This document shows positions 3,786-33,991 of a stretch of 64,000 nt of DNA, piece by piece. Every line of letters begins with the position of its first letter. Position 1 is the stretch's first letter. The stretch is from positions 1-64,000 of the forward strand of contig CAIWMU010000142.1 of NCBI GenBank assembly GCA_903913865.1. Direction: 5' to 3'. The position numbers and the translations under genes were made by a program. The notes beneath the pieces were generated by a model that had not been told where the DNA came from, made no database searches, and saw only the letters and a list, made by a program, of their open reading frames with translations. Source of the DNA: an uncultured Verrucomicrobia subdivision 3 bacterium (lineage in GTDB: Bacteria; Verrucomicrobiota; Verrucomicrobiia; Limisphaerales; UBA8199).

Positions 3786-5273
3786 TTAAGTTCGGCCGGC
3801 TTCATCGACCCTGATATATTTTCGCAGCGCGAACAAGCCCACGGGTGCGACCGTGGTCGTAAGAGCAATGATCAACCAGAGCATCTGAGAGTTGCGCGGA
3901 CCCTGCTCAGGGCAAAACCAGGCGAGCATCCAGCCGGAGGTGCCTGCCACAAGAAGTTTGGCCCCGAAAAAAGGAAGATAGGACATGGACATGTAGGAGG
4001 CCTCCTGTCCCTTTGGGGCAATTGAGGCTGCGTATTCATAAAGGCGGGGTGAATAAACGGCTTCCCCGATGGAGAGGACCGTCACGAAGAGGAAGATCAT
4101 GACGTAGTAGGGATGGACTGTTCCAGTGAGACCAAGATATCCATGCCCAAGCCACTGGCCGAAAACACCGTCCGCGATGGGTGTAAACCAGGCCAGTGGT
4201 AGTGCCATGATGAACACAGAGGCGGCCGCCACCGCGCTCCCGATCGAAACCATACGGTAGGCTGAGATGCGCTGGCTGAATAATCCCACGAACGGAACCA
4301 GTAAAATGATCAGCATCGAATTGATGTTCCACAACTTCCCAATCGGAGCACCCGCCCCCAGTTCACGGATGCCGAATTTGGGGTAGGTGTAGTACATCTG
4401 GATGAAGATCAGCCTCACAAAGGCCGCGAGCGCCAGAAAGGCCAGAAACTTGTAGAAGCCCGGCTGTGCCCAGAGCCCGCGAAAGATCCTGATCGTATCA
4501 CGGATGGCATCCCTGCAGGTGTAGCAAAGAGCTCTGGCAAGGTTCTCACCGGGATATTTCGGCTTTTCCGGGTTGATGGTGACCCCCTGATCCGTCGCCT
4601 CCACGCCGTCGCGCAGTCCAAAGTATATCAAGGGAAGCAGCACGATTTCGACAATCAGACTGACGAGAAACAGGGTGCGGTAGGTAGTCAACTGAACTCC
4701 CAGCCCCGGGACAGTGAACAAGCCGTGAGGCTCCCCAACTGTTTGCCTGACATAGTCGAAGATAAATCCTGCTATAAAAAACCCCACGTTCATCACAGCA
4801 TAAAAAATGGCGAATGCGATGGATCTTTGTGCCGTGGTAGAGTATCGGCGAACGGCCGCCACCAGCACAGGGGTTCCAAGCGCCTCCCCTGCGGCCAGCA
4901 GAAAAAGCCCGCCAGCGAGCACAAGCCACTTGGCGGTGCAAAACGTCAAAATGGCCCGGGAAACGACACAAATCCAAGCCCCCAGCAGAAACGCTTTTCG
5001 CAGTCCAATGGCATCCGTCAGGGAACCCACGAGCACGGTGAAAAGGGTCATTAACGCCGACCATCCGAAAACCAGATAGCCCGCGTGCACATCATCATAA
5101 CCCAGATCGTAGGAAAGCCAGAGAACCAGGGTAGAGTTGGCTATGCTATAGGCTAGAATGCCGATGAGTTTGACCGCGAAAGTGACCCAAAGCTCACGCA
5201 CCGCGCCGCAGAGCACGGTAAGACGACTCACCCAACCCGCTTGGGGATGATCACTGTCTGCCATTGTCCCCAC
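3786..5273 (-). CDS. MFS-type transporter
   Basis: 495 aa, about 12 hydrophobic segments, MFS-like loop GSLTDAIGLRKAFLLGA. Confidence 0.82.
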   Translation of the reverse strand: MGTMADSDHPQAGWVSRLTVLCGAVRELWVTFAVKLIGILAYSIANSTLVLWLSYDLGYDDVHAGYLVFGWSALMTLFTVLVGSLTDAIGLRKAFLLGAWICVVSRAILTFCTAKWLVLAGGLFLLAAGEALGTPVLVAAVRRYSTTAQRSIAFAIFYAVMNVGFFIAGFIFDYVRQTVGEPHGLFTVPGLGVQLTTYRTLFLVSLIVEIVLLPLIYFGLRDGVEATDQGVTINPEKPKYPGENLARALCYTCRDAIRDTIRIFRGLWAQPGFYKFLAFLALAAFVRLIFIQMYYTYPKFGIRELGAGAPIGKLWNINSMLIILLVPFVGLFSQRISAYRMVSIGSAVAAASVFIMALPLAWFTPIADGVFGQWLGHGYLGLTGTVHPYYVMIFLFVTVLSIGEAVYSPRLYEYAASIAPKGQEASYMSMSYLPFFGAKLLVAGTSGWMLAWFCPEQGPRNSQMLWLIIALTTTVAPVGLFALRKYIRVDEAGRT

Positions 5274-5415
5274 TAAACCCTATTGCGACTCCCACGTAAA
5301 GTCCGCATCAGTGCTTCAGCTACACTTTGTTGTGGGACGGGGCTCGATCCAATCGATGCCTCGGGCTTTCTCGCTGGTCAGCGGACCAAGAGTTGCTTTT
5401 GAAGGTGCGCCAATC

Positions 5416-5538
5416 TCAAAGGATGCAGGTGACTGCTGCTGCCATGATCGCAAGCAGACAGGCGGCGTAGAGAATCACAACCACCATGTCTTCCGTGAAG
5501 GAATCTGCAAGTTCTTTGCTCAACCAGGTTGCATTCAT
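5416..5538 (-). CDS. Putative 40-aa single-TM small membrane protein (absent from supplied ORF track)
   Basis: MNATWLSKELADSFTEDMVVVILYAACLLAIMAAAVTCIL*; minus strand reads TAGGAGACTTGT-ATG (AGGAG, 6-nt spacer); lies between clpB and the MFS gene on the same strand. Confidence 0.6.
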   Translation of the reverse strand: MNATWLSKELADSFTEDMVVVILYAACLLAIMAAAVTCIL

Positions 5539-5622
5539 ACAAGTCTCCTATGGTAAGTTACCACTTCAACCCGAGGGCGCAAGTAGTTACATGCAACTTT
5601 GCAGATTTATAAATAAGTAATG

Positions 5623-8244
5623 TTAAGCTTGATTATCCTGTGGCAACTTGCTGAACTTGATTTCCCCATGTTTCCCAAGGGCGGTGATCTTGTCACCCGG
5701 TCCGAAGTCGCCCTGAAGCAACTGTGTTGCAAGGGGGTCGAGCAACAGATCCTGAATGGCCCGTTTGAGAGGGCGGGCGCCGAATTGGGGATCAAAGCCA
5801 TCCTTTGCAATAATCTGTCGGGCGGCAGCGTCTGTTTCGAGGGTGATTTGCTGGGCAGCCAGACGATGATCCAGCTGTTTCAGCTGGATATCAACAATCT
5901 TTGAGATGTGCTTTTCGCTCAGGCTTTGGAAGATGATCGTGTCATCAATGCGGTTCAGGAATTCGGGACGGAAATGGGCCCTGAGTTCCGCCCGCACCAG
6001 TCTTTCCATATCCCTGATGTCATTTGTTCCAGTCTTCTGGTCCTCGTAGAAACCTTGAATGATGGGTGAACCGATGTTGCTGGTTAGAATGATGATCGTG
6101 TTCTTGAAATCAACCGTCCGACCCTGACCGTCTGTGAGTCGTCCATCATCCAGCACCTGAAGGAGCACGTTGAACACATCATGGTGCGCCTTCTCGATTT
6201 CATCGAACAGGACCACAGTATAGGGATGTCTGCGGACGGCCTCACTGAGTTGACCGCCCTCATCGTAGCCCACATAACCTGGAGGGGCACCAATGAGGCG
6301 GGACACGGAATGCTTCTCCATGTACTCGCTCATGTCGATTCGGACCATGGCATTCTCATCGTCGAACAGGAACTCTGCGAGTGCCCTCGCCGTCTCCGTT
6401 TTTCCGACCCCGGTGGGGCCCAAAAAGATGAATGACCCAACCGGGCGGTTAGGATCCTGAAGTCCTGATCGGGATCGCCGGACCGCGTTGGATACGGCCC
6501 GGATGGCGGCGTCCTGCCCGACTACCCGCAACTCCATTCGATCCTCCATCTTTACCAGTTTTTCCCTCTCACTCTCCAGCATGCGTGTGACAGGGATCCC
6601 TGTCCAGGCCGCCACGACCTGGGCGATCTCCTCTCCCGAAACTTCCTGATGCAGCAATCGTTTGTCCTCAGGTTTTTCACGAAGGCTCAGTTCGGCCGCA
6701 GCCAGCTTCTTTTGCAGATCAGGGATCCGCCCATACTGGAGTTGGGCTGCGAGGTTCAGATCGTTCTGGCGTTGGGCACCTTCCAATTCGGTCTTGGCAT
6801 CCTCCAACTGGCTGTTGATGATGCTTACAGCATTTATGGCGGCCTTTTCGTTCTGCCATCGGGCCTTGAGCCGGCTTGTCTCCTCTTTGAGGTTCGCAAG
6901 ATCCTTCTCCACCTTGTGCAGCCGGTCGATTGAACCAGCATCCTTCTCCTTTCGCAAGGCGCTCTGTTCGATCTCGAGTTGCTGGATTTGTCTGTCCAGT
7001 TGGTCAATTTCAGTGGGCATGGAATCCAGCTCCATTCTCAGGCGGGACCCCGCCTCATCTATCAGATCGATGGCTTTGTCGGGGAGAAACCGGTCGGTGA
7101 TATAACGATGGGACAGGGTGGCGGCAGCCACGAGGGCGGCATCCTGGATACGGACGCCGTGGTGCACTTCATAGCGCTCTTTCAGCCCGCGAAGGATTGC
7201 GATTGTTGCCTCGACGGTGGGCTCGGCAACCGTCACAGGCTGGAACCGCCTCTCCAAAGCCGGGTCTTTCTCGATGTGTTTGCGATATTCATCCAGCGTG
7301 GTGGCCCCTATTGCACGCAGCTCGCCACGTGCCAATTGAGGCTTCATAATATTGGCGGCATCGGTTGCCCCCTCCGCCGCTCCGGCTCCGACCAGTGTGT
7401 GAAGCTCATCGATGAACAGGACGATTTTGCCCTCGCTGGATACAATCTCCTTCAGAAAGGCCTTCAGGCGGTCCTCAAATTCCCCCCTGTATTTTGCTCC
7501 TGCGATCATCGCCCCAAGATCCATCGAGATCAGGCGCTTGTTCTTCAAAGACTCAGGAACATCGCCACTGACCATCCGCCTTGCCAGTCCCTCAGCGATT
7601 GCTGTCTTCCCCACACCCGGCTCACCGATCAGCACCGGATTGTTTTTTGTGCGGCGAGTCAGCACCTGCATCACTCGGCGGATCTCATCATCCCTGCCTA
7701 TCACAGGGTCGATTTTTCCCTGCCGTGCGAGGGCAGTCAGGTCGCGGCCGTATTTCTCAAGGGCTTGAAATTTATCCTCAGGGGTTGGGTCCACCACTCG
7801 CTGGTTCCCCCTCAGATCCGCGAGAGCGCGCAGGACGGCATCCCGCTTCACCCCCGCCTTCTGGAGTATTCGTTTGAGTGAGGAACCACCTGACTCCAGC
7901 AAGCCGAGGAGCAAATGCTCCGTGCTGATATAGTCATCCTTGAGTGCCTTTGCCTCCGATTCCGCTTTTCCCAGCGCATTTCGAAGATCGGCACCAATGA
8001 ACGGTTCCGCCGCAGATCCTTTCACCGTGTTACGGCGGGCGATTTCCCGCTCAAGATCCGATTTCAAGTTTGCGGGTTGGACTCCAACCTTCTCAAGCAG
8101 GTCAGGAATGAGGCTCTCCGTCTGCCCAAGCATGGCGAGGAGCATGTGCTCGCCGTCAACCTCCTGATGGGAGTGGGACTGGGCGATACCCTGAGCTGCC
8201 TGTAGTGCTTCCTGAGATTTTATTGTCAACCGATCAAATTGCAT
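5623..8244 (-). CDS. clpB: ATP-dependent chaperone ClpB
   Basis: 873 aa; ClpN repeats, two Walker A motifs ([16 protein letters not shown]), ClpB middle coiled coil, [17 protein letters not shown]. Confidence 0.98.
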
Positions 8245-8515
8245 AAGATACTGATAGTGCCAAATTGACTCCAGTCAAGGGACAGAGTGGGAGTGGCAGG
8301 CTCAGCTTATTCGGATGCAGCCACCCCGATTACACATCTCAATCACGATCGCTTCAAAGGTCGCCCCGGCTTGCGATCTGCGGCGATCCTCCTGATTGCA
8401 GTGCGGGGATTTCGCGAACTCGTTGGTAGCTGGGATGCGCTCTAACCGGCCGGCTCCTGGATTTTCGAAAGGGGATTCAAGCTGAGCGATTAACTATTTC
8501 CCGTGACCTGCCGAT

Positions 8516-8848
8516 ATGGAGATGATGTTTCGATGCTGGACGGTCGTCATGTGTGTCTCGCTCCTCCTTGGATGTGGCGGGAAGCAGGCCCGTATGGAGA
8601 CGCCCGAAGATCCTGCTGGGCATCATCGTGAGCAGATCGCTGTTGCGCGTAGATTGCTCGAACAGCGGGAGAACTGGGCTGACAGGGCTGAGTGGGAGGT
8701 GCTGAAATCCGGGGATGGTTGGCAGGTTATTGCCTGGCGGGTTGAACACCCTGAGCGGAAGGGGCCCGACCGTTATCTGCCTTGGGGCTACTCTGTGATT
8801 GAGATCGATAGCAGGATGGTGACGGTGGGGTATCGTCGGAAGGGGTGA
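8516..8848 (+). CDS. Small putative lipoprotein
   Basis: 110 aa; signal sequence with lipobox LLLGC. Confidence 0.6.
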   Translation: MEMMFRCWTVVMCVSLLLGCGGKQARMETPEDPAGHHREQIAVARRLLEQRENWADRAEWEVLKSGDGWQVIAWRVEHPERKGPDRYLPWGYSVIEIDSRMVTVGYRRKG

Positions 8849-8973
8849 CATGGTTGGGGCGCGATCAAATCGCTCCTGGACCAGAAAATGGGCGGAGATC
8901 GGCACCATGGATTGGGCTCCTTGCCAGAGGATTTTTGCCTTGCCTCCATCTGAATCCCCAACGATGTTCCCAC

Positions 8974-9546
8974 ATGCTTTTGTTCCGAGAGAAAGTGCCT
9001 CAAGACTGGTTGCCCAGAGTTCTGGGAAACCTTCCCTCCGTTCTGGTTGACCATGCTCATCTCGAGCGGAAGGCTGCGACAAGCGCCTTGAATCTCGAAA
9101 AGTACCACGATCTTTTTCAGAGGGTCGATGAGCTGAATGCCATCGCAATCGAGGAACTTCAGCACTTCCAGCTGGTTCTTGAGTTATTGAAGCGCCGGAA
9201 TATCCCGTTCAGTCAGGCATACCCCAGCGCCTGGATTCGGGGTTTGATGAAATCGGTGCGCAGCGGCGCCCGTCATCAGGTTATCGATCATTTGATCTGC
9301 TGCAGCTTGATTGAAGGGCGTAGTTGCGAGAAGTTCCAGGTGCTGGCGGAGGCATTGACGCAGGTGGATCCTGAATTGGCAACGTTTTATGGGAGTCTGG
9401 TCGAGTCCGAGGGGAATCACTACGCGAGCTATTTGATCATGGCGCGGCATATCGATGAAGCAGAGACTTCCCGCAGGCTGGAATATTATCTGGAACTGGA
9501 GGCGAAACTCATCCTGCTTCCCAACCCAATCGCGATGCTTCACTAA
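8974..9546 (+). CDS. miaE: tRNA hydroxylase MiaE-like diiron protein
   Basis: Track ORF begins at 8845; MiaE-like sequence begins at M of MLLFREKVPQDWL (ATG 8974). Contains DHAHLERKAA, EELQH and ESEGNHY diiron-type motifs. Confidence 0.78.
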   Translation: MLLFREKVPQDWLPRVLGNLPSVLVDHAHLERKAATSALNLEKYHDLFQRVDELNAIAIEELQHFQLVLELLKRRNIPFSQAYPSAWIRGLMKSVRSGARHQVIDHLICCSLIEGRSCEKFQVLAEALTQVDPELATFYGSLVESEGNHYASYLIMARHIDEAETSRRLEYYLELEAKLILLPNPIAMLH

Positions 9547-9726: not shown

Positions 9727-11238
9727 ATGAACATCCTGCGGATTTTTTTGATGGCTGCGGTGGCTTTTTTGGTCGGCTCAAAAGCGATCGGGGCCTCCCA
9801 GCCGAACATTCTCTACATCATGACGGATGACCACGCGGCGCATGCCATTAGTGCCTATGGCAGCCGGGTGAATGTCACTCCCGGCATGGATCGTCTGGCG
9901 AAGGAGGGGATGCGCTTTGATCACTGTTATGCGGTCAACTCCATTTGCACCCCCAGCCGTGCGACCATCCTTACCGGGAAGTATAGCCACATCAACGGCA
10001 CCCCTGTCTTTAATCGGTTTGATGGATCGCAACCCACGGTGGCGAAATATCTTCAATCTGCGGGATACCATACGGGCATGATCGGCAAATGGCACCTGGG
10101 TAGTGATCCAACGGGATTCGACTATTGGAGCATACTCCCCGGGCAGGGACTTTATTTTGACCCTGCCTTTATAGATAAGAATGGTCGGAAGGTGATCAAA
10201 GGCTATGCCACCTCCATCATAACCGACCTTGCCATCGACTTCCTCCGGGAGCGCCCCAAGGACAAGCCTTTCTTTCTGATGTGCCATCACAAGGCACCCC
10301 ACCGTCCCTGGGATCCAGAACCCAAATACAGGGAGCAATTCGCTTCAAAGAAGATTCCAGAGCCGGCCACGCTTCGGGATGACTATGCAACCCGCTCGGA
10401 TGCCATCAAGGAGTGCAATCAAAAGGTTTTCACGGATATGAACAGGCGTGATTTGAAGTTGGAGCCACCTGCGGAACTGAAGGGGGCGTCCCGCGCAGAA
10501 TGGCTTTCCGCCAAGCCTACCGAGGTGGAGACAGTTATAGACGGGAAACCGGTCAAACTGACAGGCGCCGCGCTTGATTCCTGGAAATACCAGCGTTACA
10601 TGCAGGATTACCTTGCCTGCGTGCAATCCGTGGATGACAGCGTCGGGCGTCTCCTTGACTTTCTCGATGTGGAACACCTCGCCACAAACACAATTGTGAT
10701 CTATACGAGCGATCAGGGTTTCTTTCTTGGGGACCACGGCCTCTATGACAAGCGGTTCATGTATGAGCCATCCATCCAGATGCCTTTCATTGTGCGTTGG
10801 CCGGGGCATATCAAGGCGGGATCTGTGCAGTCCTCCCTTGCGATCAACGTGGACTTTGCCCCCACATTCATGGATGTGGCAGGTTTGAAGGTTCCCACGG
10901 ACATGCAGGGGGCATCCTTGTTGCCTTTGTTCCGGGGCAAAAAGCCTTCAAGTTGGCGCACCGGCTTTTACTACCGCTACTACCATGACCCGGGCGACCA
11001 TAACACCCGCGCCCACTACGGGATCCGGACGGATACCCACAAGCTGATTCATTATTGGAAGAAGAACCAGTGGGAACTGTTCGACCTGACTCACGATCCC
11101 GACGAGATGCACAACATATATGCCGACCCTGCTCAGAAGCGAACTGTGGAGGAGTTGAAGAAGCAACTATTTCGTCTCAAGAAGGAGTTGAAGGAACAGG
11201 ATCAATTCGCGGAGCAGCAACCTCCCCCCGGGGTGTGA
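9727..11238 (+). CDS. Sulfatase (arylsulfatase-like, secreted)
   Basis: 503 aa; signal peptide, NILYIMTDDHAAHA, formylglycine motif CTPSRATILTGK, SDQGFFLGDHGLYDKRFMYE. Confidence 0.96.
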   Translation: MNILRIFLMAAVAFLVGSKAIGASQPNILYIMTDDHAAHAISAYGSRVNVTPGMDRLAKEGMRFDHCYAVNSICTPSRATILTGKYSHINGTPVFNRFDGSQPTVAKYLQSAGYHTGMIGKWHLGSDPTGFDYWSILPGQGLYFDPAFIDKNGRKVIKGYATSIITDLAIDFLRERPKDKPFFLMCHHKAPHRPWDPEPKYREQFASKKIPEPATLRDDYATRSDAIKECNQKVFTDMNRRDLKLEPPAELKGASRAEWLSAKPTEVETVIDGKPVKLTGAALDSWKYQRYMQDYLACVQSVDDSVGRLLDFLDVEHLATNTIVIYTSDQGFFLGDHGLYDKRFMYEPSIQMPFIVRWPGHIKAGSVQSSLAINVDFAPTFMDVAGLKVPTDMQGASLLPLFRGKKPSSWRTGFYYRYYHDPGDHNTRAHYGIRTDTHKLIHYWKKNQWELFDLTHDPDEMHNIYADPAQKRTVEELKKQLFRLKKELKEQDQFAEQQPPPGV

Positions 11239-27787: not shown

Positions 27788-28756
27788 ATGATGAACAGCA
27801 CAACACGGCGGGAAGCAATCTCAAGGGCAGGAATGCTCGCCCTGGTCGCAGCAACGTCCACGATTGTCCAACCCGGCACAGCGGGTGCCAAGGATCGAGC
27901 CAAGGCGGATTCCCGCCCATTCCGCTACTGTTTGAACATGGCGACGATCCGCGGCCAGAAGTTGGGGATCGTCCGCGAGATTGAGATTGCCGCGAAGGCT
28001 GGCTATCAGGGGATTGAGCCGTGGGTGGACTCGGTTCAGAATTACGTGAAGGAGGGGGGAGTCTTGACGGACCTGAGGAAGCGGCTCGATGACCACGGAG
28101 TGACGGTCGAGGGGGCCATCGGTTTCGCAGAGTGGATTGTGGATGATGAGGATCGCCGGGCCAAAGGCTTGGAACGTCTCAAGCGTGAGATGGACCTTCT
28201 GGCTCAGATTGGCGCCAGGCGCTTCGCTGCGCCTCCTGCGGGGGCGACGGATCTTCCGAAGCTGGATTTTGGGAAGGCCGCAGAGCGCTACCGGGCGTTG
28301 CTTGAGATCGGGGATGGGTTCGGGATTGTTCCAGAATTGGAATTGTGGGGCTTTTCAAAGAATCTGAACCGGATTGGGGAGTGCATCGGCCTTGCTATTG
28401 AGACGGGGCATCCCAAGGCATGCGTTCTTTCGGATGTTTTTCACCTCTACAAAGGAGGCTCTGATTACAAGGTCATGGAGTCAGTTCCGGGGCGGCTTCT
28501 GCCTGTTCTGCATATCAATGACCATCCTGCCGACCCTCCTCGTGACAAGATTGATGACAGCTTCCGGAATTTTCCCGGGGACGGAGTCGCTCCCCTTGTG
28601 GACATGCTCAAAGTTCTGCATGGCACCGGTGGCCAAAAGGTTCTCTCCCTTGAGTTGTTCAATCGCCAGTATTGGGCAGAGGATCCCCTTAAAGTTGCCG
28701 AAACAGGTTTGGCAAAAATTAAATCTGTGGTTGTGAAGGCCGGATTCAAGGCCTGA
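27788..28756 (+). CDS. Sugar phosphate isomerase/epimerase-type TIM barrel with Tat-like leader
   Basis: 322 aa; TTRREAISRAGMLALVAATS leader; VLSDVFHLYKGGSDYKVME, LPVLHINDHPADPPRD; SD AGGAG upstream. Confidence 0.88.
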   Translation: MMNSTTRREAISRAGMLALVAATSTIVQPGTAGAKDRAKADSRPFRYCLNMATIRGQKLGIVREIEIAAKAGYQGIEPWVDSVQNYVKEGGVLTDLRKRLDDHGVTVEGAIGFAEWIVDDEDRRAKGLERLKREMDLLAQIGARRFAAPPAGATDLPKLDFGKAAERYRALLEIGDGFGIVPELELWGFSKNLNRIGECIGLAIETGHPKACVLSDVFHLYKGGSDYKVMESVPGRLLPVLHINDHPADPPRDKIDDSFRNFPGDGVAPLVDMLKVLHGTGGQKVLSLELFNRQYWAEDPLKVAETGLAKIKSVVVKAGFKA

Positions 28757-28832: not shown

Positions 28833-30386
28833 TCAAAACTCCACCCGGCGGAGGATGCCGTCATCCTTCAAAACACGGGGTATGCTGGCGTTGCGGGCGC
28901 GCCCCTCAGCCCAGCTACGCAAGCGGTTGATTTGTTCATCCATGGTTTTTGCCAGAGGAACGGTCTGTCCCAGAGCCGTCAGGATATGCTCTGTCGAAAT
29001 CTCCTGCCGGGAGTAGAAGGCATCATAAAGGGCACTGTTGATCGCCTCCTCGATTTCCGCACCGCTGAAATCCTTGCTTGCCTCCGCCAGCGTGGCGGTG
29101 TCAAAAGATTCAGGGTTGCGCCCCCGTTTTTTGAGGTGAATGCGCAGCACTTCGTTCCGCTCAGGAACAGTCGGGAGATCGACGAAGAAAATTTCATCCA
29201 GCCGCCCTTTGCGCAGCAGTTCGGGGGGTAGCTGTGATATGTCGTTGGCGGTGGCGACGACAAAGACCGGTGCGGTTTTTTCCGAAAGCCAGGTGAGGAA
29301 AGTCCCAAAGACGCGCGCCGTTGTCCCGCCATCCGTGGTTCCCGATCCCTGGGATCCGGCAAATGCCTTGTCAATCTCGTCCACCCAAAGAATGGTTGGG
29401 GCGACCGACTCCGCCACAGCGATTGCACGGCGGGTGTTCTCTTCAGAGGATCCAACCAGGCTGCCGAACATACGCCCCATGTCGAAACGGAGCAGGGGCA
29501 ACTGCCATTGGTTTGCAACGGCTTTTGCACACAAACTCTTGCCGCAGCCCTGCACACCCAGAATAAGGATTCCCTTCGGTGCTGGAAGTCCGAACGCCCG
29601 AGCCTCCCCGGAGAAGGCCACAGCCCGCTTGTTCAACCAATCCTTCAATATCGAAAGCCCGCCGACGGTTTCAAAGTTTTGATCAGTGTCATACCACTCC
29701 AGCAGACCGCTCTTGCGGATGATCTGCTGCTTTTCTGCGAAGACCTCCTGAACATTCTGCCCGGTCAGGCGCTCGTCCTTGACGATGATTTTGGCGAAAA
29801 CATTCTCAGCCTCCCCCAGAGTGAGTCCCAAAGCAGCCTGCAAAATTCGCTCGCGCCCGCTCTCGTCCAGATCAATGACCACCTGCTTGAACTGTTTGAC
29901 CTCCTCAATGATCCGGTTGAGCAGGTCGTTCAAGTCGTCCCGGGTTGGGAGTGGAAAAGACAGAACGGTGACCTCCTTCTCCAGTTCGGTTGGGATCTCC
30001 ATGATCGGGGATACCAATATGATGGTCTTAAAGGAGTTTTTCAGATGAAGGCCTATCTCCTTCAGCTTTCGAATCACGGCGAAGTTGTTCCGGGCCAAAA
30101 ATGGGTGGAAGTCCTTGAAAATATATATGGCAGGTTCAACGAGCTCCAACACCTGATCGAGCGCCATGAGAGGATCCTTGGTCGACGCGTTGCGGTTCTT
30201 CTGGGATTGGATGGATGCACCAGCGGGAACAATCCCCGTGCTGTAGCTCCACTCAAATGCCTTCTTCTGCCGCTTCTTCGCGATCTCGACGATCAAGTTC
30301 TGCACCCGCATCTCCTCGCTGGTGACCACATAAATGATCGGGTAGCGGGCGCGGATCAGGGTCTCGATTTCATTCTTAAAGTTCAT
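28833..30386 (-). CDS. AAA+ ATPase, Ycf46-like
   Basis: 517 aa; Walker [16 protein letters not shown], Walker [12 protein letters not shown], degenerate N-terminal AAA-like region as in Ycf46-type proteins. Confidence 0.88.
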
Positions 30387-30391
30387 TGGGG

Positions 30392-30676
30392 TTAGGGCTG
30401 TTGAAACTCGGAAATGCTGGTTGGTGCTGGATGTTTCGAAAAATGGGTCTGGCTGTCCGGTTTGGTGATAGGCTCAGGGCTTTCAATGGCACCGGAGTGC
30501 ACAACCATCAGGATCTGCTTCAGTGACGGGGTTAGGTTGTGTGCCATGATCCGTCCGTCCGGCAGAAGCAGCAGCTCACTTCCGGCTTCAAGCAGGATCG
30601 ATGGGGTGGATGTCTCTTCAGACCTTCGGTCAGGCGCTGCTTGCGGGGGCGGCTGGATCCCTGCTGAGGTATTCAT
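30392..30676 (-). CDS. 94-aa protein of unknown function
   Basis: ATGA overlap with radical SAM gene and 5-nt gap to AAA+ gene; LLLLPDGRIMAHNLTPSLKQILMVVH core. Confidence 0.65.
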   Translation of the reverse strand: MNTSAGIQPPPQAAPDRRSEETSTPSILLEAGSELLLLPDGRIMAHNLTPSLKQILMVVHSGAIESPEPITKPDSQTHFSKHPAPTSISEFQQP

Positions 30677-31557
30677 TGTATCAGATTCAGGGAAAATTCC
30701 CGGGAAATGACCAGAGCCTTCCTTCGCTCATCATCCGAAAGGAGGCGCCCGATTCCGTTGCAGCGCAGAGCCTGCCAGGCAGGCCAATAGGCCAGATTCA
30801 GATTGAGCTCCACATCGGGGATGTTTGTGGCGATCCACCGCGCAATGGGTTGCCAGCAGCAGTCCACGTGACCGGGCAGGAGCAGGTGACGTATGATCAG
30901 GTGTGAGCTTGTTGCAGCCCATGCCAGATTCTCATGGAGGACCGGGAGATAATCCTGTGCCATGGCCACACTGGCTGCACAGGTGTTGTTTCCAAACTTG
31001 TAATCGATAACCCAATCGTCGAACAAGCCGCCCAGCAATTCGCGTGCTTCCAGAGTGTAATAGCCATTGGTTTTAATGGCGAGCCTTGCCGAATCCGGAA
31101 GGGTGGAAACAAGCGAGAGCAGCGCAGGGCAGTGGATCGTGGGCTCACCACCCAGCACCATGATTGAACGCGCCCCCTTTTCAAGCGCTTTGATGGCACA
31201 TCTCACGACGGTAGGAATATCGAGCAACCTGCCAGCCCGTGGATTCCAGCTTGATTCACCCGTGATACAGAATTTGCAGCGAAGGTTGCAACCGCTCAAC
31301 GCGATTGCGAAGGTGGGGGTCAGCTGGAGCTCATCGCCAGACTCCAGTTGCGCCGTGAAATAACTGGTGTCAAGGCCTGCGCCGCATGGCCCACGACCTT
31401 CGGCAAGTCTGTTTGCCCCACAACGCAGGGCGCAGAGTTGGCAGTTGGCCAACGCACTCCTTGCTGCTGAGATGCGGCTTGCGGCCAACTCTCGCCTGGC
31501 GATGCCCCCGCCCCCCGGGCGGAAATCCACCACGGCCTGCCTGACGTGGTCACTCAT
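30673..31557 (-). CDS. Radical SAM protein, PflX-like (COG1313-type)
   Basis: 294 aa; CNLRCKFC (CxxxCxxC), N-terminal CQLCALRCGANRLAEGRGPCGAG, LGGEPTIH. Confidence 0.88.
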   Translation of the reverse strand: MSDHVRQAVVDFRPGGGGIARRELAASRISAARSALANCQLCALRCGANRLAEGRGPCGAGLDTSYFTAQLESGDELQLTPTFAIALSGCNLRCKFCITGESSWNPRAGRLLDIPTVVRCAIKALEKGARSIMVLGGEPTIHCPALLSLVSTLPDSARLAIKTNGYYTLEARELLGGLFDDWVIDYKFGNNTCAASVAMAQDYLPVLHENLAWAATSSHLIIRHLLLPGHVDCCWQPIARWIATNIPDVELNLNLAYWPAWQALRCNGIGRLLSDDERRKALVISREFSLNLIQ

Positions 31558-32207
31558 AGTTCGAGGCGGTTGATCCTATCTGACGTAGAGGTTTCCGAGG
31601 GGCGCCCCCTGAGATACCACTCATGGCAGGAGATGAACATCCAGGCTGCGGGCCAGGCGCAGGCGGTGATCAGTCCATTGACCGGGCTGCAGGAGAAGAT
31701 GGCGGCAACAAGTGAAAGCAGGGAGAAAATGATCCCAGCAGTGCGCACTTTTGTGACGCCTGTGACGATGAGCGTAATATCTTCGTGACCACAGACCTTT
31801 ATCCAGGCAGCCAGCAGAGCAAACGATATTGGAGCGATTCCGAGAATCCCTATTGGATCGTGGGGTTGTAACAGTATTTTAACGACCCCGCTGCCCACGC
31901 CCCCGGCCAGACAGATACCATAAAAAAGCCAACGCGTGGATCTTGCTTCAACCCAAGCCCCCACAACCGCTATTAGAACACTATTCAGAACGAGATCCTG
32001 GATGCCGGCGGGGAACCATGAATGAGTCAGCAATCGCCAGACCTGTCCGCTCCAGAAGTCCCGTCCGGAGAGTGACAGGTAGTCTCCAAGGTCGGTCATC
32101 AGGAAGGACTTCAAGAGGATCGACGTGATGGTCAGCAGGGTCAGGAACGCCAGAAGCCAGCGGCATCCGGTGGGAATCGAATCAAAGAGATGACGCAGGT
32201 TGCGCAT
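31554..32207 (-). CDS. Rhomboid-like membrane protein lacking catalytic residues
   Basis: 217 aa; WRLLTHSWFPAGIQDLVLNSVLIAVVGAWVEARSTRWLFY and GILGIAPISFALL align by eye to rhomboid L1/TM2 and the GxSG region. Confidence 0.68.
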   Translation of the reverse strand: MRNLRHLFDSIPTGCRWLLAFLTLLTITSILLKSFLMTDLGDYLSLSGRDFWSGQVWRLLTHSWFPAGIQDLVLNSVLIAVVGAWVEARSTRWLFYGICLAGGVGSGVVKILLQPHDPIGILGIAPISFALLAAWIKVCGHEDITLIVTGVTKVRTAGIIFSLLSLVAAIFSCSPVNGLITACAWPAAWMFISCHEWYLRGRPSETSTSDRINRLEL

Positions 32208-32213
32208 AGGACT

Positions 32214-32456
32214 TTACTTAAGCAGTCGCTTCCACCAGGGGAGTCGGGGATGCACAACTGCTGCCGCCGCGCACTCCTCCCGCACGGAGTCTGAGAGACG
32301 TTGGGCGAGACCCGGAGGCACAGTTATCCGGGCCGCATCGCTCCGAATCAATTCCTCTGCCGACTCCGCCTCCTCCTGATGATGGGATGTCTGTTCTGAT
32401 ACGGACACCTGTTCTTGGTGCTCCGGGCGGAAGTTCAGCTTGCGTTCACGTTTCAT
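32214..32456 (-). CDS. Small protein following ECF sigma gene, possible minimal anti-sigma-like protein
   Basis: 80 aa; TVPPGLAQRLSDSVREEC...LPWWKRLLK resembles the juxtamembrane end of anti-sigma factors but has no TM. Confidence 0.55.
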   Translation of the reverse strand: MKRERKLNFRPEHQEQVSVSEQTSHHQEEAESAEELIRSDAARITVPPGLAQRLSDSVREECAAAAVVHPRLPWWKRLLK

Positions 32457-32464
32457 AGGAGGAA

Positions 32465-33037
32465 TCAGGCTGTCTGTGCGAATGTGGTGGCGAAAGCTTT
32501 TCGGGCTCGATGGATCTTCCCACGCACGGCATCGAGGGATTGGTCGGTCAAATCTGCGATCTCCTGATAGCTCAATTCATCATCCGCCAAAAGCAGCAAG
32601 ATGAGGCGGTATTCGGTGGGGATCTGATCCAGAGTGGACTGTATTCGCTGGCCGAGTTCCTTGGCCTCCAGAGCGTGGAGTGGCGATTTAGTAGGGGCTG
32701 GTGCTGAATCCCACACTGCTTGATCCGCGTTGGAAAACACATGCCGCTCCTGCCACGCCTGATGCAGATTTCGACAGTGATTGATCGCGATGCGGTAAAG
32801 CCAGGTCTTGACAGAGGCGTCCCCTCGAAACTGCCCCATTTTCCTATAAGCCTTCAGGAATACGTCGTGCGTCGCATCCTCAGCCTTCTGGGGATCTCCA
32901 AGGAGCCTTAAAGCGAGATAGTAGATGGCTTTGCTGTTCTGCTCGTATAGCTCAACAAAGGCGGCCGAGCCTGCCAGATCCAGCCTGGCACGGTCGCATT
33001 CCGGCGATTCCAAAGGTTTGTTCACGAGCAAGTTCAC
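32465..33037 (-). CDS. RNA polymerase ECF-type sigma factor
   Basis: 190 aa; region 2 (YYLALRLLGDPQKAEDATHDVFLKAYRKMGQFRGDASVKTWLYRIAINHCRN) and region 4 (LSYQEIADLTDQSLDAVRGKIHRARKAF); GTG start. Confidence 0.96.
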   Translation of the reverse strand: MNLLVNKPLESPECDRARLDLAGSAAFVELYEQNSKAIYYLALRLLGDPQKAEDATHDVFLKAYRKMGQFRGDASVKTWLYRIAINHCRNLHQAWQERHVFSNADQAVWDSAPAPTKSPLHALEAKELGQRIQSTLDQIPTEYRLILLLLADDELSYQEIADLTDQSLDAVRGKIHRARKAFATTFAQTA

Positions 33038-33154
33038 TGACGATTAGACCGCAAAGACGGAAAAATGTCACGCTGATCGAAGCGGATATCCAAATCGAAA
33101 AACAGCCCTGTTTGGAGGGTTGGTGACCGGGCAGACCGACTGTCTGGGGAGACG

Positions 33155-33991
33155 CTATTTCGCCGGTGTAACGTCGAATTCGATGCGGGTGCGGGAACGG
33201 GTCTTCCTGTTTCGAATCTCCATCTCGGTGAGTTGCCATTGCCCATTCACCTTTTTGAATTCCCTCGGATCAAACTGCTTCAACAATTCGTGGTGATCGT
33301 CATAGGCATCGGCGTGGACGATTCCCCCTGAATCAATGTCAATCCAGGAGACGACACGGGAATAGGCACCAGGCCTTGGATCAGGGTTTGTGCTCTCGAT
33401 CACCCTGCAGGACTGCCCCCGCCGCAGCTCGCTCATCAGGAGACGCTGGTCGGGCCAATGCAGGAATTCGAGGCCCAGATCACCCACCGAAAAATCACTG
33501 CCAGCAAAGGGTAGCGTGGTTTGAACGGGGTCGGACATTTGCACAGGAGGAGAATTGGAATCCTCCCCCTTGCGGAATGCGTATTGGTTGGCGGTCCCCG
33601 CTGCCTGTGAAATCAGGATTGTCGCCGCATTTGACCCTTCGACTCTGTAGATGCTCTGCCACCCGGTGGAGTTCAGCTTGATTTCGTGCACGAAAGGTAC
33701 GCGATGGGTCTGTCCCGCTCCGTTCCTGATGCTGAGGCTGCCCCGTGTTAGAATAGGGTTTGCGGGAACCTGATTTAGAACATTCGAAACCACGAAAGCC
33801 CCTTCGGTGCGAATCCTAGAGGCATCTGGAGATGGATTTCGTTGGATGTCCGCTTTTGGCTGCGAAAGCCCCCAGGGTGCAGTTGATTGAATGCAAAGAA
33901 GAATCAACACCCATCCCATTCGCCTGGCGCGTGCGCTGGCACGGGGGGGGGCTGCAGGATTGGATAGCATAGGGGGTTGGCGTTTCATCAA
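33155..33991 (-). CDS. Exported outer-membrane lipoprotein-sorting-like protein (LolA/LolB superfamily-like)
   Basis: 278 aa; signal segment; C-terminal FDPREFKKVNGQWQLTEMEIRNRKTRSRTRIEFDV. Confidence 0.65.
   Translation of the reverse strand: MMKRQPPMLSNPAAPPRASARARRMGWVLILLCIQSTAPWGLSQPKADIQRNPSPDASRIRTEGAFVVSNVLNQVPANPILTRGSLSIRNGAGQTHRVPFVHEIKLNSTGWQSIYRVEGSNAATILISQAAGTANQYAFRKGEDSNSPPVQMSDPVQTTLPFAGSDFSVGDLGLEFLHWPDQRLLMSELRRGQSCRVIESTNPDPRPGAYSRVVSWIDIDSGGIVHADAYDDHHELLKQFDPREFKKVNGQWQLTEMEIRNRKTRSRTRIEFDVTPAK

Follow-up and report, generated by a model that had tools for sequence, protein, structure and literature searches.

A compact verrucomicrobial operon may be one half of a larger system, so far undescribed, that joins a Ycf46-type AAA+ ATPase to a radical SAM enzyme

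Six genes are packed together on the minus strand (28833-33037) of a 64-kb stretch of DNA, hereafter the window, with intergenic gaps of 8, 6 and 5 nt and two ATGA overlaps (31554-31557 and 30673-30676). Do they make up a system of their own and, if so, what does its radical SAM (rSAM) enzyme act on? An ORF check found the layout, gaps and overlaps given by the sequence-only reading of this DNA to be exact throughout (Table 1), and Pfam matches agree with the identities it gave to the sigma factor, the rhomboid-like protein, the rSAM enzyme and the AAA+ ATPase. The 80-aa protein and the 94-aa protein (p94) have no Pfam match; as homologues fill the same slots in dozens of genomes, both ORFs are real genes.

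Table 1. Genes and sequence features of the operon, in window coordinates.
Feature	Position	Strand	Evidence
Candidate ECF promoter GCGTGACA-N16-GTCTAATC	33042..33073	-	Candidate site at 86/92 sigma loci
ECF sigma factor, 190 aa, GTG start	32465..33037	-	Pfam Sigma70_r2 4e-16, r4_2 2e-12; conserved gene 1 of the cassette
~80-aa protein	32214..32456	-	Adjoins sigma at rSAM-positive or rSAM-negative loci
Rhomboid-like membrane protein without catalytic Ser/His, 217 aa	31554..32207	-	Pfam Rhomboid 1.6e-9
Rhomboid-like C-terminal tail R-I-N-R-L-E-L	31557..31577	-	Motif in 26/26 homologues
PflX-like radical SAM enzyme, 294 aa	30673..31557	-	Pfam Radical_SAM 4.8e-10
N-terminal cysteine motif C39-x2-C42-x3-C46-x11-C58	31384..31443	-	Invariant in alignment A4
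CxxxCxxC (C90, C94, C97), SAM-binding 4Fe-4S cluster	31267..31290	-	Invariant in alignment A4
p94, 94 aa	30392..30676	-	Homologues between rSAM and AAA+ in rSAM-positive operons
p94 conserved core SELLxLPDGRIxxHNLTPxxxxxL	30503..30583	-	Alignment of homologues
Ycf46-like AAA+ ATPase, 517 aa	28833..30386	-	Pfam AAA 3.3e-28; PDB profile search
Walker A GVQGCGKS	29535..29558	-	Gly, Lys and Ser invariant in alignment A3
AAA+ C-terminal tail R-R-V-E-F	28836..28850	-	Motif in 51/56 rSAM-positive AAA+ proteins

The rSAM gene is found in 61 of 320 species genomes of one verrucomicrobial order, usually in the order sigma, ~80-aa protein, pseudo-rhomboid (where present), rSAM, p94 and AAA+. Many families of this order share the arrangement, which also turns up in another order of the same class (L338) and is thus far beyond chance; the synteny and the co-occurrence of the rSAM, 94-aa and AAA+ genes, on which the proposal of a system hung, are clearly found in other genomes. 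Generic PflX genes in G057, G069 and G107 were set aside, as they are not members of this operon type. The composition of the loci is layered. The commoner cassette holds the sigma, 80-aa and Ycf46-like AAA+ genes alone. Into it a module of rSAM and p94, with or without the rhomboid, is inserted, and this module co-occurs with genes for DUF1257 (Ycf35), DUF2997 and an S26-like protein, mostly immediately downstream of it; TPR and PilT-family genes come next. In the source genome the DUF1257, DUF2997, S26-like, TPR and PilT-family genes lie on contig C250, separate from the operon. The gene we call DUF1257-long is present in 26 of 31 rSAM-positive genomes versus 1 of 165 others, and DUF2997 at 42 rSAM-positive loci versus none of the rSAM-negative sigma cassettes; DUF1257 was not found in certain tailed or rSAM-positive genomes (G017, G066, G094, G025 and G108). 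Clusters at the phylum level read rSAM-[rhomboid]-AAA+-DUF1257-DUF2997-S26-like-TPR-PilT, the deeper ones keeping the core without sigma and p94. Paralogous Ycf46 clusters likewise pair DUF1257 with DUF2997, often together with an NrdG-like rSAM, and have conserved basic tails of their own. The six genes therefore stand as the single conserved compact unit that had been proposed, but the DUF1257, DUF2997, S26-like, TPR and PilT genes also belong to the system. The rhomboid gene is an optional part, with 26 homologues in the 61 rSAM-positive genomes, and the sigma and 80-aa genes can stand as a pair apart from the rSAM module. These comparisons of gene content suggest that the operon is half of a larger undescribed system, in which a Ycf46-type remodelling machine would work with an rSAM enzyme and a relative of ycf35.

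Control of the operon appears to be local. The sigma factor has both sigma2 and sigma4 domains and a candidate cognate promoter before its own operon, as expected of an ECF sigma factor with an autoregulated operon. A promoter candidate lies upstream of the sigma gene at 86 of 92 loci, with a spacer of 16 at 71 of these 86. Across the 6.27-Mb genome the promoter of the operon itself, an exact match, is the only site at two or fewer mismatches; in relatives the promoter mostly occurs once per genome, and the reversed control gave 0. A promoter that is exact, conserved and unique in the genome, standing before the gene of the sigma factor, supports the role of regulator first suggested for it, and the operon seems to switch itself on through a sigma factor private to it. 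Between the end of the -10 block and the GTG start there are 4 nt, and the transcript is probably leaderless. A wider sigma regulon was considered and rejected: off-operon matches to the promoter occur in 5 of 50 genomes, about the level of chance except in G240. In G240 a TPR gene is preceded by a second copy of the promoter and the first sigma codons. The 80-aa protein has the consensus EE[ML]LRxDA..VPP..A.RL..S....WW[KR]R[LF], and its position makes it a possible soluble anti-sigma-like partner.

The rSAM protein belongs to the radical SAM superfamily, with CxxxCxxC and GGEP invariant and PF04055 above cut-off. Its closest solved relative is PFL activase (E 2e-6); no NCBIfam model for glycyl-radical-enzyme activases (PFL-AE, NrdG) and no SPASM/maturase model reaches its cut-off. 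In the AAA+ protein the AAA+ domain (PF00004, residues 273-403) is C-terminal to a long N-terminal region, and a PDB profile search gives Cdc48/p97 as the nearest solved relatives. We take this protein to be Ycf46-like, the name given by the sequence-only reading, the libraries used carrying no Ycf46 model; the Cdc48-like domain layout and the DUF1257/DUF2997 linkage of the protein and its paralogues fit a Ycf46-type assignment. Weak matches of the AAA+ domain to IetA models and of the rSAM protein to prokaryotic viperin could point to an anti-phage defence operon, but what the IetA, TRIP13 and viperin matches cover is just the generic core of an AAA or rSAM protein, no PADLOC system fits this gene set with its ECF autoregulation, and the genes conserved alongside encode TPR and PilT proteins rather than defence functions. 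A defence function is most improbable.

The first proposal had the rSAM enzyme act on p94. In the core of p94 the Gly is invariant and the Asp, Thr and Leu are almost so, between variable flanks, and the core looks like a β-hairpin followed by a helix. Neither PF11211/DUF2997 nor any other Pfam family matches among 33 members of p94. An hhalign comparison with DUF2997 gave a probability of 28.5% over 15 columns (controls ≤0.3%). We did not adopt p94 as a DUF2997 protein, the match being to a 15-column hairpin alone; genuine DUF2997 shares clusters with p94, so that any kinship between the two can only be distant. By eye p94 also suggested an RRE of the PqqD type, an idea that was dropped, as no Pfam or PDB profile supports it. 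The deeper clusters L339-L342 keep rSAM, AAA+, DUF1257 and DUF2997, and p94 was not found in them, which argues against p94 as the main substrate of the rSAM enzyme. The core reaction is probably not the modification of p94, which is better described as a lineage-specific add-on. The same absence weighs on a RiPP-like pathway, akin to the first proposal, in which p94 would be a precursor peptide modified by the rSAM enzyme, with the remaining genes for export or regulation. A short protein with a conserved core, encoded next to the rSAM gene with ATGA coupling, would suit such a pathway. We nonetheless find it improbable, given that p94 is conserved centrally and not as leader plus variable core, that the operon is without peptidase or exporter, and that no RRE or precursor family matches and no SPASM-type rSAM model reaches cut-off.

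The rhomboid-like protein of the window has GIAP where the GxSG serine is expected and no His, and so lacks the marks of an active protease. The His is missing in 26/26 homologues and the catalytic Ser in 25/26; one homologue at the phylum level (L340) is catalytically intact. The description of the protein as inactive therefore holds for almost all homologues. A rhomboid without catalytic residues, an AAA+ protein nearest to Cdc48/p97 and adjoining genes of membrane systems (S26-like and PilT) recall extraction by Derlin and p97, whereby the pseudo-rhomboid would hand membrane proteins to the Cdc48-like ring, with rSAM and p94 as accessories. This is quite unlikely, as more than half of the rSAM-positive operons are without a rhomboid, the L340 homologue is intact, and the rhomboid ends in a copy of the AAA+ tail, which does not look like an AAA+ binding site.

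This shared tail mostly accompanies the rSAM enzyme. The end motif R-[RK]-[MVIL]-E-[LFM] is present in 51 of 56 rSAM-positive versus 2 of 48 rSAM-negative AAA+ proteins. All 26 rhomboids end in R-x-x-[RK]-[LI]-E-[LMI], and a similar end is seen in 0 of 798 neighbouring proteins. On the tree of AAA+ proteins the association involves 13 changes, of which supported branches carry at least 8, and the pairs test of tail against rSAM gave a median p of 0.03, with none in the opposite direction. A relic tail persists behind a stop in L229, a genome without rSAM, and L231 has a truncated rSAM and a retained tail. Five rSAM-positive genomes are without the AAA+ tail, and four of these keep the rhomboid tail. 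AAA+ proteins at the phylum level end in SKIEL, SKLEM, RKIELE and RRKLEFT. A scan of the source-genome DNA for R-[RK]-[MVIL]-E-[LF] before a stop gave 2 further matches, both in tiny ORFs (32 and 39 aa). The tail is less convincing as a strict marker of rSAM alone in view of tailed Ycf46 paralogues and of G057 and G286, where a tailed AAA+ protein occurs in a genome without a dedicated rSAM. The tail could itself be the substrate: the enzyme would modify R-R-[MV]-E-[LF] at the C-termini of the AAA+ protein and the pseudo-rhomboid, and the modified tail would control the ring. Two unrelated proteins of one operon end in the same, strictly C-terminal motif, and the tail tracks rSAM through many gains and losses and decays once rSAM is lost. 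However, a conserved basic C-terminus (LRKLAA) is also seen in Ycf46 paralogues that have no rSAM beside them, two tailed AAA+ proteins come from genomes without a dedicated rSAM, and the tail is variable except for the Glu and one basic residue. We regard the tail as a doubtful substrate, and covalent modification of the extreme C-termini of the Cdc48-like AAA+ protein and the pseudo-rhomboid through one shared motif as slightly more doubtful still. If true, this would be an AAA+ machine controlled by a radical SAM enzyme, and Ycf46/Ycf35 would gain a function.

The reading that we prefer, and to which we give about an even chance, is an autoregulated remodelling complex of Ycf46, Ycf35 and DUF2997 with an rSAM maturation enzyme, joined by a shared docking tail. 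The sigma factor would read the promoter before its own gene, so that the system would switch on as a unit from a transcript that has no leader. Until a signal frees it, the sigma factor would be restrained by the 80-aa protein. The tails of the AAA+ protein and the pseudo-rhomboid may both dock on one partner (rSAM, DUF1257 or DUF2997); docking on a shared partner would account for the same end peptide in the ring and the pseudo-rhomboid, and would let the latter place the complex at the inner membrane. Tail, rSAM, p94, DUF1257 and DUF2997 co-vary, and their distribution does not favour one docking partner over the others. The rSAM enzyme, a relative of glycyl-radical-enzyme activases, may modify DUF2997, DUF1257 or the tail. 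The AAA+ ring would load or remodel the modified protein, possibly, to judge from gene order, on the co-encoded PilT-type motor.

Comparison with known systems places the operon among several that it resembles in part. PFL activase and enzymes of PflX/NrdG type have the CxxxCxxC core in common with the operon's rSAM, which differs by the additional invariant C193, C233 and C234 and the N-terminal four, and no glycyl-radical enzyme was noticed in the clusters. Derlins are rhomboid pseudoproteases; like them, the operon's rhomboid matches the family without the catalytic dyad, here encoded beside a Cdc48-like AAA+ ATPase, but it is optional and bears a copy of the AAA+ tail. To the PilT/PilU ATPases of type 4a pili the link is the neighbour c0, which matches TIGR01420 above the curated cut-off (1.2e-110) but lies outside the window. 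Ycf46 of cyanobacteria and red-algal plastids is presumably an AAA+ protein of the same type as the operon's, and in plastids ycf35 stands alongside. The parts of the plastid study that bear on these genes place ycf35 and ycf46 among the few plastid genes lost in the same marine/freshwater pattern and report no radical SAM partner for Ycf46 (PMC5940233). In Synechocystis the duf2997-ycf35(DUF1257)-fed7 operon encodes DUF1257 and DUF2997 with an iron-sulphur protein, and both families recur in the rSAM-positive clusters; as described, its partner is a ferredoxin and not a radical SAM enzyme, and it has no AAA+, sigma, pseudo-rhomboid or p94 (PMC4284462). In the open-access literature we found no paper joining DUF1257/DUF2997 to radical SAM or AAA+ proteins, and no established function for Ycf46, Ycf35 (DUF1257) or DUF2997, which are widespread orphan families; Ycf46 and Ycf35 are the two retained in plastid genomes. 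The clusters described here link these families with one particular radical SAM enzyme, and with a pseudo-rhomboid, a PilT-type ATPase and an S26-like protein. The operon illustrates a self-contained module grafted in and out; its one promoter, one tail and one enzyme are concrete handles for probing these machines, and the job of the plastid genes could become testable in bacteria.

The six open reading frames that the sequence-only reading had placed at 28833-33037 were confirmed on the minus strand, with their coordinates, gaps and ATGA overlaps. They belong to a conserved system whose core is a Ycf46 machine and a radical SAM enzyme; the observation holds up, and is stronger than that reading put it. 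No prior description of this system was found in the open-access literature. Pfam domains identify the ECF sigma, rhomboid, radical SAM and AAA+ proteins, and the Pfam search gave no match for the 80-aa and 94-aa proteins. The radical SAM protein has as invariants CxxxCxxC, an N-terminal four-cysteine motif, C193, C233 and C234; PFL activase is its best solved relative, and Cdc48/p97 is the nearest to the AAA+ protein among solved structures. The assembly spans 6.27 Mb and is 95% complete. The closest named relative of the radical SAM gene (49% identity) lies in a Verrucomicrobiales MAG, within six genes identical in kind and order to those of the window. The TIM barrel gene flanking the operon occupies the slot of DUF1257 genes in other genomes.

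The radical SAM gene (E <= 1e-25) occurs in 61 of 320 species genomes from the order, and a close AAA+ homologue (E <= 1e-195) in 120. The order sigma, 80-aa protein, optional rhomboid, radical SAM, 94-aa protein, AAA+ is conserved nearly throughout the loci from these genomes, with the rhomboid in 26 of the loci that hold the enzyme; a single genome from a different order in the class has the arrangement minus the rhomboid. Genomes without the enzyme carry a commoner cassette, sigma–80 aa–AAA+, in which the last two genes are directly adjacent, so the [rhomboid]–radical SAM–94-aa module is a separable insert. Its presence changed at least 13 times on the AAA+ tree (8 changes forced by supported branches), gain and loss being indistinguishable there. 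Some operons have an extra gene between the radical SAM and 94-aa genes.

Most loci with the enzyme continue 3' of the AAA+ gene, on the same strand, with a ~100-aa protein, DUF1257 (PF06868, 5.7e-7), DUF2997 (PF11211, 5.6e-14), an S26-like protein whose match to Peptidase_S26 is weak, along with a TPR protein and an ATPase of the PilT family. Across 196 relatives, the long form of DUF1257 occurs in 26 of 31 genomes with the enzyme versus 1 of 165 others; DUF2997 is present in 42 loci with the enzyme and in none of the sigma cassettes lacking it. Some of those cassettes, too, have TPR and PilT genes behind them. In the window's genome the DUF1257-to-PilT genes lie on contig C250 and the operon on C142; the system is thus split in two. 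Judged by its sequence, the S26-like protein on C250 may be another pseudoprotease of this system.

Coordinates of features in the window and in compared loci
Feature	Location	Position	Remarks
LolA-like lipoprotein-sorting protein gene	window	33155-33991	upstream flank, same strand as operon
Xylose-isomerase-like TIM barrel gene	window	27788-28756	downstream flank, convergent
DUF1257–DUF2997–S26-like–TPR–PilT	L322 (G000:C250)		window's genome
S26-like membrane protein	L322 (G000:C250)	7843-8721	usual signal-peptidase Ser and Lys boxes absent by eye
Rhomboid with intact GASG and His	L340 (G610)	1163-1873	beside radical SAM and AAA+
Extra ~310-330-aa gene	L234	6438-7430	
Extra ~310-330-aa gene	L237	6359-7348	
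Extra ~310-330-aa gene	L238	6269-7207	
Duplicated sigma promoter and first sigma codons	L235 (G240)	10803-10833	1.5 kb upstream, before TM-TPR gene (c4 family)
Ycf46 paralogue cluster	L211 (G000:C261)	4174-9082	window's genome

Four distant genomes of the phylum (L339-L342) cluster radical SAM, AAA+, DUF1257 and DUF2997 without the sigma gene, and include the S26-like, TPR and PilT genes wherever the contig is long enough. A pattern search, which a diverged copy could escape, found no ORF like the 94-aa protein in these clusters, and the central hypothesis of the sequence-only reading, that the enzyme acts on this protein, is not supported. Because of this gene content, radical SAM–AAA+–DUF1257–DUF2997 looks like the core, and the sigma factor, 80-aa and 94-aa proteins look like lineage-specific additions. 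Two of the four have a rhomboid; the one that is catalytically intact, beside radical SAM and AAA+, suggests that the pseudo-rhomboid descended from an active protease within this system.

In operons with the enzyme, 51 of 56 AAA+ proteins carry R-[RK]-[MVIL]-E-[LFM], or something close to it, at the C-terminus, behind a linker that varies; only 2 of 48 from cassettes without the enzyme do so. All 26 rhomboid-like proteins have R-x-x-[RK]-[LI]-E-[LMI] at the C-terminus, and an end of this kind occurs in none of 798 other neighbouring ORFs. In L339-L342 the AAA+ ends are SKIEL, SKLEM, RKIELE or RRKLEFT. With relatedness counted, the association of AAA+ tail and enzyme is good but not overwhelming, as 6 of 8 tree-based independent pairs agree and none opposes (median p 0.03, range 0.016-0.125). 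One locus that lost the enzyme (L229) keeps a relic DRMEL behind the AAA+ stop codon, and L231, with a truncated enzyme, still has the tail. L114 has lost the tail and retained the radical SAM and 94-aa genes; four genomes of one genus have lost the AAA+ tail and kept that of the rhomboid. Two exceptions, G057 (with DUF1257) and G286, have the tail without a dedicated enzyme.

A promoter, GCGTGACA-N16-GTCTAATC, precedes sigma genes in the order; its -10 element stands a few bases before the start codon, which implies leaderless transcripts. In the window's genome the operon promoter is the sole site at <= 2 mismatches; at 3 mismatches the 28 sites are close to the 21 of a backwards control. 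Almost all matches across 50 genomes fall at the operon. These matches suggest a sigma factor that serves its own operon only; the operon's products would then be the response. One locus carries a duplicated promoter (table). A near-identical interspersed repeat of ~32 bp, GCGTGACAAACCGGCGGGTCGGGTGTCTGTTT, resembles the -35 half of this promoter and occurs on many contigs of the window's genome (C11, C36, C55, C79, C93, C172, C181, C194, C196, C213, C226).

Within the same order, most Ycf46 paralogues (AAA+ roughly 37-49% identical) share a cluster with DUF1257 and DUF2997, and in one subtype an NrdG-like radical SAM gene adjoins the AAA+ gene. One such paralogue in the window's genome is grouped with DUF1257, DUF2997 and a divergent NrdG-like radical SAM gene; an Hsp70-like gene comes next. 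The paralogues end in basic sequences of their own, which are conserved (EEQFVRLQ, LRKLAA); the tails probably serve as docking motifs, each specific to a partner. A mechanism joining a shared docking tail, protein modification and remodelling would be about as likely to hold as to fail. In Synechocystis one operon comprises duf2997, ycf35 and the ferredoxin gene fed7 (PMC4284462), and in red-algal plastids the losses of ycf35 and ycf46 have one habitat pattern in common (PMC5940233). Because of the paralogue clusters, this operon and the plastid losses, Ycf46/Ycf35/DUF2997 with an Fe-S protein is a general theme. The Fe-S partner is a ferredoxin in Synechocystis, whereas in the window's system it is a radical SAM enzyme.
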